This document shows, piece by piece, positions 22,648 to 33,866 of a stretch of DNA of 60,059 bases. Below the pieces are notes generated by a model that did no database searches, was not told where the DNA came from, and was given only the letters and a program-made list of their open reading frames with translations. Origin of the DNA: Planctomycetota bacterium. GTDB lineage: Bacteria > Planctomycetota > B15-G4 > JADJEK01. The first letter of the stretch is position 1. Every line of letters starts with the position of its first letter. Location: contig JACQZJ010000066.1 in NCBI GenBank assembly GCA_016213895.1, positions 1 to 60,059 on the forward strand. The letters are read 5' to 3'. The translations under genes and the position numbers were made by a program.

Positions 22648-23934
22648 ATGAAGGGAATCATGGTTGCCGCGGTGGCCGCGCTCGTGTCCACCACGATCGC
22701 GCTGGAGCGGGTCTCCTGGGCCGGCGGCGCGCGGAAGGCGGAGTTCGAGGCGCCGGTGCGGTTGCTTGCGGACGGGAAGTTCCTGAACGAGGTGGAGAAC
22801 ATGCTCTACCCCTCTCCGGTGCTGCTCGACGTCGACTCCGACGGACAGCGTGAGCTGGTGTGCGGCGACCTCTGGGGCCGCCTCCGCGTGTATGAGAATG
22901 TGGGGGAGGAAGGCGACACCACGTGGGGCCCCGCGGTCAAGCTCCAGTCCGAGGGCAAGGACCTCGAGCTACCGAACTGGTGATGCGTCGGCATGTGTCC
23001 ACAAGGCGTGGACTTCAATGCTGACGGCGTGAACGATCTCGTGGTGGGCACCATGGAGGGTGTCGCCTTCCTGGTTCCAGGATCCACGTCCGGCTTCAAG
23101 CAGCCGGAACGTGTTCTCGACTGCGAGGGCCGGCACATACTCCTGGGCAAGTTCTTCAACCGGGAGGCCAGCAAATGGGATGAGACGGATCGCAGTCCCA
23201 AGGGCAAGAAGAACCCGGTGGATCACTGCGTCGCCGTCGTGGCCGTGGACTGGGACGCGGACGGGGACCTGGACCTGCTGCTGGGCGCCAAGGAAGGACG
23301 CTTCTATCTGCGCAAGAACAAAGGCAAGAAGGGCCAGCCCGAGTTCACGGCCTACAACGAGCCGATCCCCGCGGGCAAGTCCGTGCTCGAGGTGCCCGGC
23401 GAACTGACCGCGCCACGGCTGGTCGACTGGAACGACGACGGCCGCTTCGACCTCGTGTGCGGGAGCCACGACGGAGGCGTCTACCTGTGCGAGAACAAGG
23501 GCAAGAAGGGGAAGCCCGCGTTCGGGAAGCCCGAGACTCTGATTCCGCCTGGTGGTCAACCGCGCTTCATGGGCTCTGGAAGTGGCAACCTGCCTGCCGA
23601 ACCCCTCAGGCCGACGTCCGGGTGCTACGTCGACGCGGTCGACTACGACGGAGACGGCGACCTCGACCTGCTGGTGGGCGGACGCTGCACCTGGAAGCCG
23701 GAGGAGCGACAACTGACTGCCGCGGAACAGCAGCGGGTCAAGGAGCTGCTGGCCGAGGAGAAGTCGGCGCAGGCCGAGATGGAGAAGCTCGACGCCAAGG
23801 CCAGTCGGAGCGAGGAAGAGCGGGCGACCTGGTCGCAGCTCTACCGAAAGCTGGAGGACCTGGACAAGGAACTCTGTACGTACCTGCCGCGCCCGCGAAG
23901 CGCCGAGTTCGTCTGGTTGTATCGGCGGCGCTGA
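22648..23934 (+). CDS. Secreted FG-GAP/VCBS-repeat protein with in-frame TGA (candidate selenoprotein)
   Basis: Read through TGA 22981-22983 this is a 428-residue protein; read strictly it splits into 22648-22983 (111 aa) and a same-frame ORF from 22993. A signal peptide (about residues 1-25) is followed by FG-GAP/VCBS beta-propeller blades with calcium-loop patterns: LLDVDSDGQRELVCGD, VDFNADGVNDLVVG, VDWDADGDLDLLLG, VDWNDDGRFDLVCG and VDYDGDGDLDLLVGG. A coiled-coil segment (QQRVKELLAEEKSAQAEMEK) and a terminal EFVWLYRRR follow. The TGA is codon 112 in the context LPNW-[TGA]-CVGMCPQG, next to two cysteines, with a hairpin directly 3'. Blades on both sides are intact, so one gene is certain in origin. 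Recoding versus nonsense mutation is open. RBS is AGGAGGG, 8 bases before the ATG. Confidence 0.7.
22981..23026 (+). promoter_or_regulatory. TGA codon with long hairpin immediately 3' (SECIS-like candidate)
   Basis: The TGA (22981-22983) is followed after 2 nt by a 9-bp stem CGTCGGCAT (22986-22994) pairing with ATGCTGACG (23018-23026, one G-U). A second 6-bp stem GTCCAC/GTGGAC (22997-23002 with 23008-23013) closes a 5-nt loop AAGGC. The apical loop begins 20 nt after the TGA, in the normal range for bacterial SECIS elements. No G is among its first two bases, so it departs from the usual consensus there. Confidence 0.35.
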
Positions 23935-24036: not shown

Positions 24037-24797
24037 GTGAGAGTCCTCGGCAAGCGAAGGGCACCGATCCTGGCGGCTCTGCTCGGGGCGGTCGCGGCGG
24101 CTGCGGCGTTCCTGCTGGTCCAGGGGGAGTCCGCCCCGCCGTCTGGCCCGAGCGGGAGCGAGGCCACCGCCGCTCCGCAGGAAAAGGAGCCAGGCGTCGC
24201 TTTGCCCGCGCTCGAGGCCGAGAGCGAGGTCGAGCGGAACGAGGCGCAAGCGAGCCGCCGCGAGCCGGACTTCGGCGGGGTGACCGGCCTCCTCGTGGAT
24301 GAGCAAGGCGCGCCAGTGGCCGGCGCCACGGTCACGCTGAGCATCTGGCAATCATCGCTCAAGAGCCACGGCCTGGCGGGCTGCGCGCGCCGGAGCGCCT
24401 GCTGCGGACCATCGACCTGCGCGCATCGAGCATGGAGAACGAGAAGATCCGGATTTCGTCCTGCGGCTCGCTCTTGTTCGACCTACCGGACGATCTCGTC
24501 GAGGGCGTCTCGATCGAGAGCGTCCTGCTGCGCGCCGGCGGGGCGGAGCGTCCCTTGGCGCCGACCCGCGCCGGCGGTCGAGACTACGTGGTCGAGCGCG
24601 TGCCGCACGGGCGGCACGAGATCGTGCTCCGTGTCTCTGCCGGCGGCGCGCTCTCCCTCACTCTCGGAGCAAGGAAACCCTGGCAAGACGGCGGTCCAGA
24701 AGGTAAATCGGACCGACAAGTAGAGATTTGTCACATCGCCCACGGGGCGAGCAGGTTCTCGGCTACGATGCGCGGCTGCGTGCGAGGATCCCAGTGA
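24037..24797 (+). pseudogene. Decayed carboxypeptidase-regulatory-like gene
   Basis: A GTG at 24037 (after GGAAGGTGGG) opens a typical exported protein: a hydrophobic helix (APILAALLGAVAAAAAFLLV), an acidic low-complexity linker, then GVTGLLVDEQGAPVAGATVTLSIW, the start of a regulatory-like beta-sandwich. Right after this, near 24345-24355, coherent coding shifts to another frame (AQEPRPGGLRAPERLL, then SIESVLLRAGGAERPLAP and RVPHGRHEIVLRVSAGG), which looks like the C-terminal part of such a protein. A frame-disrupting internal deletion explains this. The final part overlaps the start of the flavoprotein gene. It is the same kind of gene as 20037-22502. Confidence 0.65.
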
Positions 24798-26716
24798 ACG
24801 AGCGCCTGCCGATGCAGGTCGAGGTGCCCGGCGACGGCTATCACCGTGGCCTGATCTCCTGCCAGGTGGCGTGCCCGGTGCACACGGATGCGCGCGGCTA
24901 CGTGCGGGCGATCGCCGAGGGGCGCTTCGAAGAGGCCTACCTGATCGCGCGCGGGCCGAATCCCTTCGCCTCGATCTGCGGGCGCGTCTGCGGCGCGCCC
25001 TGCGAGGCGGCCTGCCGGCGCGGCAAGGTGCCGCGCGTGGACGCGGACGGGCGCTTCGTGGGCGTGGACCGGCCGATCTCCATCCGCGCGCTCAAGCGCT
25101 TCGCCTGCGAGCAGGCCGGCCCGGAGGCTCGCCCGACCGAGGATCTCCTGCAGGCCGTGCGCGGCTACGTGCCGCGCGTCTGCGCGGACGCCGAGGAGAT
25201 GGCGGCGCTGCTCAGCGCGGGCGTGGCGGGCGCATTCCGAGCGGCGGAGGGCCAGCGCGTCGCGATCGTCGGCGCCGGACCAGCCGGCTTGTCCGCGGCG
25301 CACGACCTGGCGCTCATGGGGTTCAAGCCCGTGGTCTTCGAGACCGAGCCGGTGGCGGCCGGCATGCTGGCCGTGGGCGTGCCGGCCTATCGCCTGCCGC
25401 GCGACCTCATCGCGCGCGAGGTCGCCGTCATCCGCGCGCTGGGCGTGGAGATCCGCTGCAGCGTGACCGTGGGCAAGGACATCACGTTTGCCGAGCTGCG
25501 GCGCGACCACGCGGCCGTGATCCTCGCCGTGGGCGCCAAGTCGTCCCGCGCGCTGGGCCTGCCCGGCGAGCGCGGGCCGCGCGTCTACGGCGGCGTGGAC
25601 CTGCTGCGCGCGGTGTCGCTGGGCGAGCGGCTGGACACGGGCCGCGAGGTGGTCGTGATCGGCGGCGGCAACGTCGCCTACGACGTGGCGCGCACGGTCA
25701 TGCGGCAGATCGCCTACGACACGGCGCGCACCGCGGCGCGCCTGTCCGGCACGGGCAAGGTCCACCTGGTGTCGCTGGAGACGCTCGAGGAGATGCCCGC
25801 GGACACGGCGGAGATCCGGGAAGGAGACGAGGAGGGCATAGGAAGGCTGAACGGCTGGGGCCCGGTCGAGATCGTGCGCGACCACGCGGGCGCCGTCACG
25901 GGCGTGACGCTCCGCCAATGCCGGCGCGTCTACGACGAGCAGCGCAGGTTCAGCCCGCTCTTCGACGACGCGGTGCGCCGGACCATTCCCTGCGACACGG
26001 TGCTGCTCTCCGTGGGCCAGTCTCCGAACACGGAGTTCCTGGCGGACGGAGGACAGGACGTCGCGCTCAGGAGTCCGGGCTGGCCCGAGGTGGACAAGGG
26101 CACGCTCGCCAGCAGCGCGCCGGGCGTGTTCGTGGCCGGCGACCTCGCGCACGGAACGCGCCTCTTGATCGACGCGGTGGCCTCGGGCAAGGCGGCGGCG
26201 CGCTCGGTCTACCGCCACCTGACGGGGCGCACGATCACGATGGACGCGGTCACGGCGCACGTCGCCCTGCCCCTCTACCGGCGCGAGCGCGGCTACGAGG
26301 CGATCCGGCGCCAGCCGGTTCCGGTCCTCGAGCCGGGGGAGCGGCTGCGCCATCCCGAGACCGTGGTCGAGGCGGGCTACGGCGCGACAGGCGCGCTGCG
26401 CGAGGCTTCGCGCTGCCTGGACTGCGGCGTGACGCCGGTCTTCGACGGCGCGCGCTGCGTGCTGTGCGGCGGCTGCGCGGACGTCTGCCCGACGCAGTGC
26501 CTCAAGCTGGCGCCGCTGGTGGACCTGGAAGCTCGCGCCGATCTGGCCGCGGCCATCGCGGGCGCCCTGGGCAGCGGCGCGGCCCTGGAGGACGACTCCG
26601 CCATAGTGAAGGATGAAGAGCGCTGCATCCGCTGCGGGCTGTGCGCGATGCGGTGTCCCGTGGAGGCGATCACGATGGAACGGGTGACCTTCGCAACGGA
26701 CTGGAGCAGCTCATGA
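24794..26716 (+). CDS. GltD-like FAD/NAD(P)H oxidoreductase with ferredoxin domains
   Basis: A 640-residue iron-sulfur flavoprotein of the glutamate-synthase-small-subunit/DPD-domain-II family. The N-terminal cluster-binding region has Cys23, Cys27, Cys62, Cys66, Cys70 and Cys74 (LISCQVACPVH; SICGRVCGAPCEAAC). The FAD fold starts at VAIVGAGPAGLSAAHDLAL and the NAD(P) fold at EVVVIGGGNVAYDVARTVM. The C-terminus adds two [4Fe-4S] ferredoxin motifs (CVLCGGCADVCPTQC; CIRCGLCAMRCPVEA). It has no glutamate synthase partner; instead it leads the Rieske/cytochrome b operon, whose next ATG overlaps its stop (ATGA). It likely couples NAD(P)H to the quinone/cytochrome system. Start is uncertain: GTG 24794 (GAGG upstream) or ATG 24812. 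Confidence 0.85.
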   Translation: MNERLPMQVEVPGDGYHRGLISCQVACPVHTDARGYVRAIAEGRFEEAYLIARGPNPFASICGRVCGAPCEAACRRGKVPRVDADGRFVGVDRPISIRALKRFACEQAGPEARPTEDLLQAVRGYVPRVCADAEEMAALLSAGVAGAFRAAEGQRVAIVGAGPAGLSAAHDLALMGFKPVVFETEPVAAGMLAVGVPAYRLPRDLIAREVAVIRALGVEIRCSVTVGKDITFAELRRDHAAVILAVGAKSSRALGLPGERGPRVYGGVDLLRAVSLGERLDTGREVVVIGGGNVAYDVARTVMRQIAYDTARTAARLSGTGKVHLVSLETLEEMPADTAEIREGDEEGIGRLNGWGPVEIVRDHAGAVTGVTLRQCRRVYDEQRRFSPLFDDAVRRTIPCDTVLLSVGQSPNTEFLADGGQDVALRSPGWPEVDKGTLASSAPGVFVAGDLAHGTRLLIDAVASGKAAARSVYRHLTGRTITMDAVTAHVALPLYRRERGYEAIRRQPVPVLEPGERLRHPETVVEAGYGATGALREASRCLDCGVTPVFDGARCVLCGGCADVCPTQCLKLAPLVDLEARADLAAAIAGALGSGAALEDDSAIVKDEERCIRCGLCAMRCPVEAITMERVTFATDWSSS

Positions 26717-27194
26717 CGGCCGAGGCGCGTGCCCCGCGTTCGCGGCTCGACCCGGAGCCGGTGTCCCGGCGCGACTTTCTGGGACTGGCAGCGCTCTGGG
26801 CGGCGGCTTCGGCCTTGGGCTTCGCCTTGATCGGCTCGCTGCGCCTGCCGCGGGCCGCGGTGCTTTCCTCGCCGTCGAAGAAGTTCCGGGTGACGCTGCC
26901 GGAGTCGCTGCCGGCCGGCCAGGCGTTCGTGCCGCCGGGGCGCGCGGTGGCGTTGTTCCGGGACGCCGAGGGCGTATACGCGGTGTCCCTGATCTGCACC
27001 CATCTCGGCTGCGTGGTGAAGAGCACTCCGACCGGATTCGAGTGCCCGTGCCACGGCTCGCGCTTCGGGCTCGACGGCACGGTGGCGAAGGGGCCGGCGC
27101 CGCAGCCGCTGCCGTGGCACAAGATCACGGGCGGCGCCGGCGACTACGTGGTGGACGAGAGCGCGAACGTGCCTCAGGGCACGCGACTGAAGGC

Positions 27195-27198
<4 letters not shown>
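26713..27198 (+). CDS. Rieske [2Fe-2S] protein
   Basis: A 161-residue Rieske subunit. The N-terminus has SRRDFLGLAALWAAASALGF, a twin-arginine-type signal that stays as a membrane anchor. The cluster motifs are CTHLGC and CPCHGSRFG, with two Cys and two His ligands and the disulfide-forming Cys pair of bc-type Rieske proteins. It begins inside the stop codon of the flavoprotein gene (ATGA) and ends in the start codon of the cytochrome b gene (ATGA), so the three are translationally coupled. Role: electron transfer from quinol bound at cytochrome b to a c-type cytochrome. Confidence 0.92.
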
Positions 27199-28748
<1,550 letters not shown>

Positions 28749-28752
28749 CGCC

Positions 28753-30414
28753 GTGAACAGGAACAAAGGCCTGCTCTTGTTGTCGAGCCTGGGCGTGCTG
28801 GCGCTCCTGGTGGCGGCCGCCGTGCAGGAGAACATCCTCAAGTCGTGGCGGCGCATCCAGGGCGCGGCGAAGACGGAGGCGGGTCCGGTGGAGGTGCGGC
28901 TGCGGCAGATCGTCGTGCCCGGGCTCAAGGCCGCGGACCGGTGCGTGTCGTGCCACGTGGGCATGGCGCCCGGCGAGAGCGGAATCCTGGGTCCGCGGGC
29001 CGTGGCGGCGCACCCGCCGTTGGCGCACGATCCGGGAGAGTACGGGTGCACCGCGTGCCACGGCGGCCAGGGCCGGGCGACGGAGGAGGCGGATGCGCAC
29101 GGCGCGGCGGCGTTCTGGCCGGAGCCGATGATCCCGTTGCGCTATGCCTACGCCGGCTGCGGCACCTGTCACACGCACGTGCGCGTGCCGAGCCAGTCGG
29201 CCCTGGAGCGCGGGCGGAACGTGTTCGAGCAGCTCGACTGCCTGGCGTGCCACAAGCTGGACGGCCGCGGCGGCACGCTGCGCCCGTGGGGCGTGGGCGG
29301 GATGGAAGGGCCGGATCTCTCGCGCGCGGGCGCGGCCGGCGGAGGCGTCGGGTGGTACGAGAGGCACCTCGAGAAGTCGCAGGAGGCGACGGACGGCGTC
29401 TGGAAGACGTGCTTCGGCGCGATCGAGGAGAGCGCGCGCGCCGACCTGGCCGTGTTCCTCGCCTCGCGCGTGGGCGCGCCGGGACTGGTGGAAGCAAAGG
29501 CCCTGTTCCACACCCTGGGCTGCCGCGGCTGCCACAAGGTCAACGGCGTGGGCGGAGACGACGGGCCTGACTTGACGCGCGCCGGCGCGCGCGATCCGGG
29601 CCGCACCGATTTCACTCATGTGCCGGGCGAGCCGGCGCTTCCCAACTGGTTCGCCGAGCACTTCCGCGATCCGGCCAAGATCGTGCCGGGTTCGTTGATG
29701 CCGGTGCTGGGACTGACGGAGGAGCAGATCGACGGACTGACCTTCTACCTGCTCTCGCTGCGGCAGAGCGGTTTCCCCGAGGCGTACTGGCCGAAGGACC
29801 GCATCCTGGCCGATCGCTTCGGCGAACGCGAGTTCGCCGCGGACGGCGCGACGCTCTACGGCACGTTCTGCGCCGCCTGCCACGGCGCGGAAGGGCAGGG
29901 GATGCGCTATCCCGGCATGCCGGTCTTCCCGGCCGTGGCGAATCCGGACTTCCTGGCCGTCGCCTCGGACGAGTTCATCGCCGGGGCGGTGGAGCGCGGG
30001 CGGCCCGGCCGCCGCATGCCGGCGTGGGGCGAGAAGGAGGGCGGCCTGCGGGCGGAGGAGGTCCGGTCAGTCGTCGCGCACCTGCGCGTTCTCGGCGGCG
30101 TGAGCGCGGCGGAGCCGGATCCGCAGCCGCCGCGCTGGGCGGAGGGTGACGCGCAAGTTGGCGAGCGGCTGTTCGGCGCCTACTGCGCGGGTTGTCACGG
30201 CGCGACCGGCCAGGGCGCGGAGAGCCCGGCGCTGAACAACCACGTGCTGCTCTCCACCGCCAGCGATACCTATCTGGCGCGGACGATCGCGCGCGGGCGG
30301 CGCGGGACGTCCATGGAAGGCTATGGCGACGCTTCGACGGTGCACCCCGCCCTGTCAGCCGAGGAAACCGAGGCCCTGGTCCGGTTCATCCGGACATGGG
30401 AGAAAGCTCAATGA
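28753..30414 (+). CDS. Heptaheme c-type cytochrome
   Basis: A 553-residue protein (GTG start, 4 bases after the cytochrome b stop) with one N-terminal membrane anchor ([20 protein letters not shown]) and seven CxxCH haem sites: CVSCH, CTACH, CGTCH, CLACH, CRGCH, CAACH and CAGCH. The last four sit in mono-haem cytochrome c domains, including two near the C-terminus ([28 protein letters not shown]). It should accept electrons from the Rieske centre in the periplasm and pass them on, in this operon most simply to or from the molybdoenzyme. It overlaps the next gene by an ATGA. Confidence 0.92.
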
Positions 30415-33400
30415 GCAGTCGCCTTTCGCGCCGTGAGTTCCTGGAAGCCGCCGGCAGGGCCGGATTCGGCGCCCTGGCGCTCTCGGCCACGCAGGCCTGG
30501 GGCCTGGAAGCGGTCACCAATCCGCTGTCCACCTATCCGAATCGCGACTGGGAGCGCGCGTATCGCGATCTGTGGCAGTACGATTCGAAGTTCACGTTCC
30601 TGTGCGCGCCCAACGACACGCACAACTGCCTGCTCAACGCCTACGTCCGCTCCGGCGTGGTGACGCGCATCGGTCCGACCATGCGCTACGGCGAGGCGAC
30701 GGATCTCAGCGGCAACCAGACCTCGCACCGCTGGGATCCGCGCGTCTGCCAGAAGGGGCTGGCGCTCACGCGGCGGTTCTACGGCGATCGGCGCATCAAC
30801 CAGTGCATGGTGCGGAGCGGCTTCAAGAAGTGGGTCGACGCCGGCTTTCCGCGCGGCGCGGACGGCCTGCCGCCGCGGGAGCACTTCGAGAGGGCGCGCG
30901 ACGAGTGGCTGCGTGTCACGCACGACGAGGCGGCCGCGATCGCGGCCAAAGCGCTGAAGAACATCGCCGAGACCTACAGCGGCGAGGAGGGCAAGCGGCG
31001 CCTGCTGGCGCAGCACTACGACGAGGCGACCGTCGAGGCCATGCAGGGCGCGGGGACGCAGGTCATGAAGTTCCGCGGCGGCATGCCGCTGCTCGGCATG
31101 ACGCGCGTGTTCGGCTTCTACCGCATGGCCAACTCGATGGCGCTGCTCGACGATCACATCCGCAAGGTCGGGCCGGACGGGGCGCTGGGGGCGCGCGGCT
31201 TCGACAACTACAGCTGGCACACCGATCTGCCCCCCGGCCACCCGATGGTGACCGGCCAGCAGACGGTGGAGTTCGATCTCAACGCCGTCGAGCACTGCAG
31301 GATGGCGGTGGTCTGGGGCATGAACTGGATCACCACCAAGATGCCGGATGCCCACTGGCTGACGGAGGCGCGCGTGAAGGGCACGCGCGTGGTCGTGATC
31401 GCCTGTGAGTACTCGGCCACCGCGACCAAGGGCGACGACGTGCTCGTCGTGCGCCCGGGCACGACCCCGGCCCTTTCCCTCGGCCTGGCCCACGTGATTC
31501 TGAGCGAGCGCATCTACGACGCGGACTACGTCAAGCGTTGGACGGACCTGCCGCTGCTCGTGCGCATGGACAACCTGAAGTACCTGCGCGCCGCGGAGGT
31601 CTTCGGCGGCGAACCGGCCGCGCTCGAGAACCAGACGCGCGTGCTGGCCGAGGACGAGAGGGAGCCTCCGCCCGGGAGCCAGAGCGACATGCTCATCCCG
31701 AGCAAGCTGCGCCGCGAGTGGGGCGACTACGTGTGGTGGGACGAGACCACGCGGGCGCCGCAGGCGATGACGCGCGACCAGGTCGGCGAGAAGTCGCTGG
31801 TTGGAGACCCGCGGCTCGAGGGGGCGGTGGAGGTGACGCTCGCCGGCGGTGAGAAGGTGCGCTGCCGGCCGGTGTTCGACCTGGTCAAGGAGTACGCGGC
31901 GCACTTCGATCCGCAGACGGTCGAGGAGATGACCTGGGCGCCGGCCGGGTCGGTGGAGGCGCTGGCGCGCGACATCGCCCGGGCACCCGGCACGACGCTC
32001 TTCGCGATCGGCATGGGGCCGAACCAGTTCTTCAACAGCGACAACAAGGACCGGACCATCTTCCTGCTGGCGGCGCTGACCGGGAACGTGGGCCGCATCG
32101 GCGGCAACGTCGGCTCCTACGCCGGGAACTACCGCGTGGCGCTGTTCAACGGCGCGCCGCAGTACATCAACGAGAACCCCTTCGACATCGAGCTCGACCC
32201 GGCCAAGCCGGCGCGGCCGAAGCAGTACTGGCGGGCGGAGTCGGCGCACTACTACAACCACGAGGACCACCCGCTGCGCGTGGGCAACAAGCTGCTCACG
32301 GGCAAGACGCACATGCCCTGCCCGACCAAGTCCATGTGGTTCGCCAACGCCAACTCGATCCTGGGCAACGTCAAGTGGCACTACAACACGGTCGTCAACG
32401 TGCTGCCGCGCATCGAGATGATCGCCGTCAACGAGTGGTGGTGGACCGCTTCCTGCGAATGGGCGGACGTGGTGTTCGGCGTGGATTCGTGGGCGGAGCT
32501 GAAGCACCCGGACATGACCGCCTCGGTCACCAACCCGTTCCTGCAGGTCTTCCCGCGCACGCCCCTGGCGCGCATCTTCAACACGCTGGGCGACATCGAG
32601 GTGCTGGCCCTCGCCGGGAGCAAGCTCGCCGAACTGACCGGCGATGAGCGGTTCAACGACTACTGGAAGTTCGTGCAGGACGGCAACACCGCCGCCTACC
32701 TGCAGCGCATGCTCGACACCTCCACGAACACGAAGGGCTACCGCATCGCCGAGCTCGAGGAGAAGGCGAAAGAGGGCATTCCCGCGCTGATGAACAGCCG
32801 CACCACCCCCAAGGCGGTGGGCTTCGAGCAGGTCACGGACTCGCGGCCGTGGTACACGAAGAGCGGCCGCCTGGAGTTTTACCGCGAGGAGGACGAGTTC
32901 ATCGAGGCGGGCGAGAACCTGCCGGTGCACCGCGAGCCGATCGACTCGACGTTCTACGAGCCCAACGTGATCGTCGCGCCGCGGCACGAGGCGATCCGCG
33001 CGACGCCGCCGGAGGACTACGGGGTGGCGCGCACCGACCTGTCGTGCGAGACGCGCTGCGGCCGCAACGTGGTGAAGACGTGGGCCGAGACCAAGGCGGC
33101 GCCGCACCCGTTGATCAAGGACGGCTACCGCTTCATCTTCCACACGCCGAAGTACCGCCACGGCTCGCACACCACGCCGATCGACACCGACGTCATCGCC
33201 GTGCTGTTCGGGCCGTTCGGGGACCTGCACCGCCAGGACAAGCGCAGCCCGTTCGTGACCGAGGGGTACGTGGACATCAACCCGCTGGACGCGCGCGAGG
33301 TGGGGGTCGAGGACGGCGACTACGTGTGGATCGACGCCGATCCCGAGGACCGGCCGTTCCGCGGCTGGCAGAAGAACGCGCGCGACTACGGCTTCGCCCG

Positions 33401-33866
33401 CCTGCTGTGCCGCGCGCGCTACTATCCCGGCACGCCGCGCGGCGTCACGCGCATGTGGTTCAACATGTACGGCGCGACGCCGGGATCGCAGGAGGGCCAG
33501 CAGTCGCGCGCGGACGGCCTGGCCAAGAACCCGCGCACCAACTACCAGGGCATGTTCCGCTCCGGCTCGCACCAGTCGGCCACGCGCGGCTGGCTCAAGC
33601 CCACCTGGATGACTGACTCGCTGGTGCGCAAGGGCATGTTCGGCCAGGGAATCGGCAAGGGCTTCCTGCCCGACGTGCACTGCCCGACCGGCGCGCCGCG
33701 CGAGGCGTTCGTGAAGATCACGCGCGCCGAGCCGGGCGGCCTCGGCGGGGAGGGGCTGTGGCGGCCGGCGGCGCTGGGCATTCGACCGAGCTACGAGGCT
33801 GAGGAGATGAGGCGATACCTGTCCGGGGCGTTCCTGGCGGGCGGGAACGAGTCCAAGGAGCGCTGA
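30411..33866 (+). CDS. NarG/NxrA-like molybdopterin oxidoreductase, alpha subunit
   Basis: A 1151-residue catalytic subunit of the type II DMSO-reductase family (NarG, NxrA, ethylbenzene dehydrogenase, selenate/perchlorate reductase relatives). A twin-arginine signal ([19 protein letters not shown]) directs it to the periplasm. Candidate FS0 cluster ligands are spaced C65-x3-D69-x3-C73-x39-C113. NarG has H-x3-C-x3-C-x34-C, so an Asp may take a Cys position. [10 protein letters not shown] holds Asp272, aligned with the Mo-ligand Asp in NarG's CDLPP segment. [20 protein letters not shown] and [20 protein letters not shown] are further cofactor-binding signatures. The substrate cannot be read from the sequence; nitrate, nitrite or another oxyanion are plausible. 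Confidence 0.88.

Follow-up and report, generated by a model that had tools for sequence, protein, structure and literature searches.

A phylum-wide family of predicted FG-GAP beta-propeller proteins in Planctomycetota with a candidate selenocysteine-cysteine redox site

The window analyzed here, a stretch of 60,059 nucleotides from a Planctomycetota draft contig, encodes a predicted FG-GAP/VCBS beta-propeller protein whose reading frame is interrupted by TGA at codon 112. Comparison with homologs leaves little doubt that this UGA would be decoded as selenocysteine (Sec). In the broader interpretation, which is favored with moderate confidence, the gene represents an undescribed, phylum-wide family of exported propellers in which a Sec-Cys pair would be a new kind of redox site, coupled to DsbD-type or thioredoxin-type electron donors outside the cytoplasm.

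The propeller gene and its internal TGA

The features of the locus are as follows.

22648..23934, + strand: predicted FG-GAP/VCBS beta-propeller selenoprotein gene, 428 codons through the internal TGA, with Pfam FG-GAP repeats
22648..22725, + strand: N-terminal hydrophobic segment MKGIMVAAVAALVSTTIALERVSWAGG, putative export signal, as judged from the sequence and the signal-like N-termini of homologs
22981..22983, + strand: in-frame TGA, codon 112; homologs have TGA at this codon in 109 distinct sites and Cys in 7
22984..22986, + strand: Cys 113, predicted vicinal partner of Sec (U-C motif); Cys follows TGA in 108/109 sites and is present in 7/7 Cys forms
22997..23013, + strand: SECIS-like hairpin with a 6-bp stem, conserved and covarying more than the protein sequence requires, absent from Cys homologs
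23008..23055, + strand: FG-GAP repeat directly after the Sec-Cys site (PF01839, residues 121-136)
23425..23676, + strand: FG-GAP_3 repeats of later blades (PF13517, residues 260-343)
23719..23883, + strand: predicted helical hairpin inserted ahead of the last strand (VWLYRR); model helices 358-382 and 389-412

The frame 22648-23934 translates as MKGIMV...LELPNW, the TGA codon, CVGMCPQGVDFNADG...FVWLYRRR, and the true stop, also a TGA, is located at 23932-23934. Homologs with 33-94% identity align with the window protein over its full length, across the internal TGA. The sequence-only reading had pointed to 22981-22983 as the second in-frame TGA of the window, lying within an FG-GAP protein and close to cysteines, and this is borne out: Cys 113 follows immediately and Cys 117 is also found downstream. 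The blades that it had placed on both sides of the TGA in a single frame are indeed there, the first at residues 57-73, ahead of the TGA, and others at 121-136 and 260-343, after it. The Pfam cut-offs are exceeded by both PF13517 (74 bits) and PF01839 (40 bits), and the FG-GAP_3 match after the TGA is highly significant (E 1.4e-20, best stretch 260-343). The N-terminal segment is probably an export signal. The Sec-Cys pair precedes the D-x-D-x-DG loop of its own blade by ten residues and, by analogy with FG-GAP propellers, should lie near the start of an inner strand.

Only FG-GAP-type repeats were detected in the window protein by Pfam, with neither a thioredoxin (Trx) fold nor a DsbD_N domain nor a match to a PQQ family. 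The family profile weakly matches the solved structures of ITFG2, CRTAC1 and integrin chains. An AlphaFold model of the window protein, built from two sequences, is of low confidence (pLDDT 50), with helices 358-382 and 389-412 as its best-scored part; its Foldseek matches consist largely of propellers, at TM-scores near 0.3-0.4.

Two other regions of the window can be mentioned. On the minus strand, 231-1556 contains a TGA (783-785) with coding-like composition on both sides, HEAT repeats being found downstream of the TGA only. On the plus strand, 24728-33866 is a run of genes that, from the translations, resembles a respiratory module and includes a flavoprotein with FeS motifs, a Rieske protein, cytochrome b, a multi-CXXCH cytochrome c and a large molybdopterin-type oxidoreductase.

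Distribution and conservation of the family in Planctomycetota

A read-through search identified the family in 25 of 58 related genomes, and each relative covering the site was scored as having one internal TGA. The TGA directly precedes an invariant Cys in all of the first 22 aligned relatives, within diverse contexts such as NW-U-CIGM, TG-U-CIGF, VW-U-CTSS, ST-U-CISF and VY-U-CIAS. A profile search (E below 1e-30) across the phylum extended the family to 100 of 392 genomes and 65 of 267 genera; the profile encoded the TGA as Cys, so that TGA forms were not favored over Cys forms. By a hand count from the search table, 92 of the 100 family-carrying genomes have TGA at the site. Comparison of 116 distinct sites from fetched loci revealed TGA in 109 and a Cys codon in 7. 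Cys adjoins the TGA in all but one of the 109 sites, the exception being L148 (G163:C58), which has U-R and is the sole family member with the partner Cys replaced.

Adjoining paralogous Sec propeller genes, all with TGA, are found within single genomes at L138 (G160:C1) and L140 (G386:C1). One Sec propeller gene is overlapped at its 3' end by a gene for an aldehyde ferredoxin oxidoreductase (L161:7659-9602, G026:C44). Examination of ten adjacent genes at nine loci identified neither a conserved operon nor a common Pfam family, save for one DsbD_N gene. A scan of genome contigs with the single window protein matched only the sister metagenome-assembled genome (MAG), and a search of viral contigs and plasmids yielded no match.

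The part of the gene that follows the TGA is under purifying selection. When the window is compared with its sister, G001, dN/dS (NG86) is about 0.10 downstream of the TGA (97.5% identity) and 0.23 upstream of it (86% identity). Because of these values, a pseudogene or a genuine stop does not account for the data, and the decay in related strains that the sequence-only reading had named as a refutation of its proposal is contradicted by the copy in G001.

A conserved hairpin downstream of the TGA

The stem GTCCAC/GTGGAC (22997-23002 / 23008-23013) encloses the loop AAGGC (23003-23007); the stem starts 14 nt and the loop 19 nt past the TGA, with a predicted energy of about -9.2 kcal/mol. The codon alignment downstream of the TGA is gap-free, and RNAalifold predicts a common stem with compensatory changes, e.g., from AU to GC at pair five and from CG to UA at pair six. 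Random synonymous recodings of each sequence with local codon usage served as the control. In the 109 TGA sites, the median z of the hairpin free energy is -2.9 and 5.5 of 6 pairs form against 3.6 in the null; in the 7 Cys sites, z is 0.03 and 3.4 pairs form against 3.1. Mean energies are -9.2 kcal/mol in TGA members and -2.3 in Cys members. Given these z values and pair counts, the stem appears to be maintained on top of the protein sequence and to be lost together with Sec.

The bacterial SECIS (bSECIS) model specifies an upper stem of 4-16 bp, a loop of 3-9 nt, a distance of 16-37 nt from the UGA and a minimum free energy of -7.5 kcal/mol or lower, with a G within the first two loop positions, a rule that a subset of accepted elements fails (PMC13188914). 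The window hairpin falls within the limits of size, spacing and energy (6 bp, 5 nt, 19 nt, -9.2 kcal/mol). Details of the sequence-only reading held in part. It had described a stacked hairpin of 9 and 6 bp, of which the upper 6-bp helix is the conserved one and the lower 9-bp helix is specific to the window genus rather than a family feature (5.8 of 9 pairs family-wide vs 5.3 in synonymous-codon controls). Likewise, the lack of an early loop G, which it had counted against Sec, is real for the window genus, i.e., the window itself (AAGGC, first G in position 3) and the sister G001 (AAGGT), but 105 of the 109 family members have a G in positions 1-2, with loops mostly of the form AGTTN or AGGTN. 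In G001, an A-U pair can close the loop, leaving AGG; in the window, A.C would have to close it.

Interchange of Sec and Cys and the Sec machinery

In the seven Cys-Cys forms, TGA-Cys is replaced at the identical alignment position. Six of these come from one genus (G184, G237, G298, G349, G384 and G388, genomes 99-100% complete), in which neither SelA (0/6 genomes) nor tRNA-Sec was found. The seventh, from G191, belongs to a genome that retains the Sec machinery. In the tree, the Cys forms occupy two separate places within the Sec forms, which implies that the change happened independently at least twice. SelA was detected in 89 of the 92 TGA genomes and in 155 of the remaining 300 genomes (Fisher p 4e-18, hand-read counts). 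The TGA-gene genomes without a SelA match (G177, G213 and G331) are MAGs of 77-82% completeness, and a tRNA-Sec match is missing in several TGA-gene genomes.

Genes for SelA, SelB, SelD and tRNA-Sec occur at least in duplicate in the window genome, the count being two for each (for SelB, two SelB-like genes); SelB was matched by TIGR00475, with no match to PF09106. The genes for tRNA-Sec, SelA and SelB are clustered on contig C97 (39338-42868). Further machinery loci of this genome (G000) are C64:35914-38037, C82:9637-11520, C88:46075-47001 and C214:11416-11509, and the second SelD, on C64, itself contains an in-frame TGA. The sister genome G001 has two SelA as well. The sequence evidence demonstrates that the predicted Sec/Cys state of the family tracks, and would depend on, the Sec machinery.

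The features by which bacterial selenoproteins are recognized, namely an in-frame UGA flanked on both sides by homologous coding sequence under selection, homologs with Cys at the UGA position (here, the seven Cys-Cys forms) and Sec machinery in the same genome, are all present. An ordinary stop codon, an error in sequencing or decay into a pseudogene could be considered given that TGA is a common stop here, one that also terminates the propeller gene itself, and that the assembly behind the window is a MAG-like draft. The family comparison refutes each of these possibilities: the identical TGA codon recurs in 109 sites from independent assemblies, the downstream region is under purifying selection and the hairpin exceeds protein constraint, so that this explanation is wholly implausible. 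Hardly more credible is insertion of Trp or of another near-cognate residue, or a pair of cistrons with translation restarting at the in-frame ATG 22993. Readthrough of UGA as Trp does occur in bacteria, but the TGA is only ever replaced by Cys, and the genus in which it is replaced lacks both the Sec machinery and the hairpin. As for a restart, ATG 22993 is not conserved, many homologs having TTC, TCC or AGC-type codons instead. Cys-only replacement, loss of the hairpin and the unconserved ATG thus led to rejection of both variants. Sec decoding, by comparison, brings together the 109 TGA sites, the Cys-Cys homologs and the conserved hairpin, and the idea of Sec in a beta-propeller protein, unexpected when raised in the sequence-only reading, gains support. 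The homolog check suggested there, for Cys or Cys-Cys at codon 112, gave 7 Cys-Cys forms vs 109 TGA forms, 108 of them TGA-Cys. The predicted recoding, the SECIS-like hairpin, the Sec-Cys motif and the interchange of Sec and Cys are thus all demonstrated at the level of sequence.

Domain fusions and the proposed function

Some family members are fused to additional domains. DsbD_N is located C-terminally in L013, L094, L099 and L103 (Pfam E 2e-12 to 5e-6), and a DsbD_N-like domain was recognized at the C-terminus of L125 by a home-made profile; the respective genomes (G029, G198, G101 and G189 by Pfam, G302 by the home-made profile) represent three distinct branches of the tree. In G184, the Cys-form gene is closely followed by a gene for a DsbD_N protein. 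L007 (G020:C38, 130-2766) has a ResA/TlpA-like domain fused ahead of the U-C propeller; this additional domain contains an in-frame TGA of its own (WGFW-U-GPC), which makes the protein a predicted double selenoprotein.

Sec residues usually have catalytic roles. Fusion with DsbD_N in some members and with a ResA/TlpA-like domain in another suggests extracytoplasmic thiol-disulfide chemistry, and a vicinal selenol/thiol redox center that is re-reduced by donors of the DsbD or thioredoxin type is therefore proposed. In the scheme that we infer, comprising export, the placement of the pair on the propeller, the redox cycle and the electron donor, SelB and tRNA-Sec would decode UGA 112 under the guidance of the downstream coding-region hairpin, yielding a vicinal Sec-Cys pair where a blade begins, shortly ahead of its D-x-D-x-DG loop. 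The selenol would attack an oxidized or electrophilic substrate, and Cys 113 would then resolve the adduct by closing a selenenylsulfide ring. Re-reduction of the pair would fall to exported DsbD-type or thioredoxin-type thiol-disulfide partners.

It is fairly probable that the pair is a redox center, notwithstanding the absence of a Trx or DsbD domain from the window protein and the lack of conservation among neighboring genes. The pair might instead bind a metal or metalloid, such as mercury or selenite, or form a structural, non-catalytic vicinal selenenylsulfide. The near invariance of U-C, which no other obvious catalytic residue shares, is compatible with such a role, and CU-type motifs occur in metal-related selenoproteins, the MerB-like SaoL and MbdU (PMC13188914). 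The recurrent fusions with DsbD_N and with a Sec-containing thioredoxin, however, indicate thiol-disulfide exchange, and no metal-resistance genes were found among the ten adjacent genes scanned, so that a metal-binding or structural role appears unlikely.

Significance and comparison with known systems

The 2026 inventory of prokaryotic selenoproteins comprises 119 families and subfamilies in its Table 1, where no FG-GAP, VCBS or propeller family appears (PMC13188914). In an earlier survey of planctomycete selenoproteins, the word propeller is absent from the text, the candidate table aside (PMC4807772). A full-text literature search found no paper joining selenocysteine with FG-GAP or VCBS; selenoprotein combined with VCBS repeat returned one, unrelated paper. 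NCBIfam release 20 gave no model above the cut-off and only two ABC-ATPase models far below it. The Sec propeller family is therefore likely to be previously unreported. Because gene callers stop or restart at the TGA, its members are probably mis-annotated widely.

Most characterized selenoproteins have the thioredoxin-like fold (PMC13188914). Here, Sec is predicted within a repeat propeller, in roughly one in four of the genomes sampled from this large phylum, and the TGA is kept in almost all of these. The family could serve as a test case for vicinal Sec-Cys chemistry outside the thioredoxin fold and for the question of what maintains Sec decoding in Planctomycetota.

The in-frame UGA, the coding-region hairpin, the Sec/Cys pairs and the dependence on SelA, SelB and tRNA-Sec are all shared with known bacterial selenoprotein families, among which U-C is rarely the motif given (GxUC of a CopZ-type 2Fe-2S protein) and UxxC, CxxU or CU prevail (PMC13188914). 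Sec thioredoxins of the TlpA/ResA type (as in L007) and the DsbD N-terminal domain (as in L013, L094, L099 and L103) are fused to some members, whereas the window protein has neither; these fusions suggest a redox path shared between the propeller and the TlpA/ResA or DsbD domains. Propellers of the methanol dehydrogenase type contain a vicinal Cys-Cys ring in the active site and require PQQ; the vicinal pair is alike, but these proteins are unrelated in sequence, lack Sec and depend on PQQ. FG-GAP/VCBS proteins (PF01839 and PF13517; integrin alpha, ITFG2, CRTAC1), best known for binding or adhesion, have the same repeats and D-x-D-x-DG loops, to which the Planctomycetota family adds a near-invariant, predicted Sec-Cys pair where one blade begins, as well as a predicted helical hairpin close to the C-terminus.
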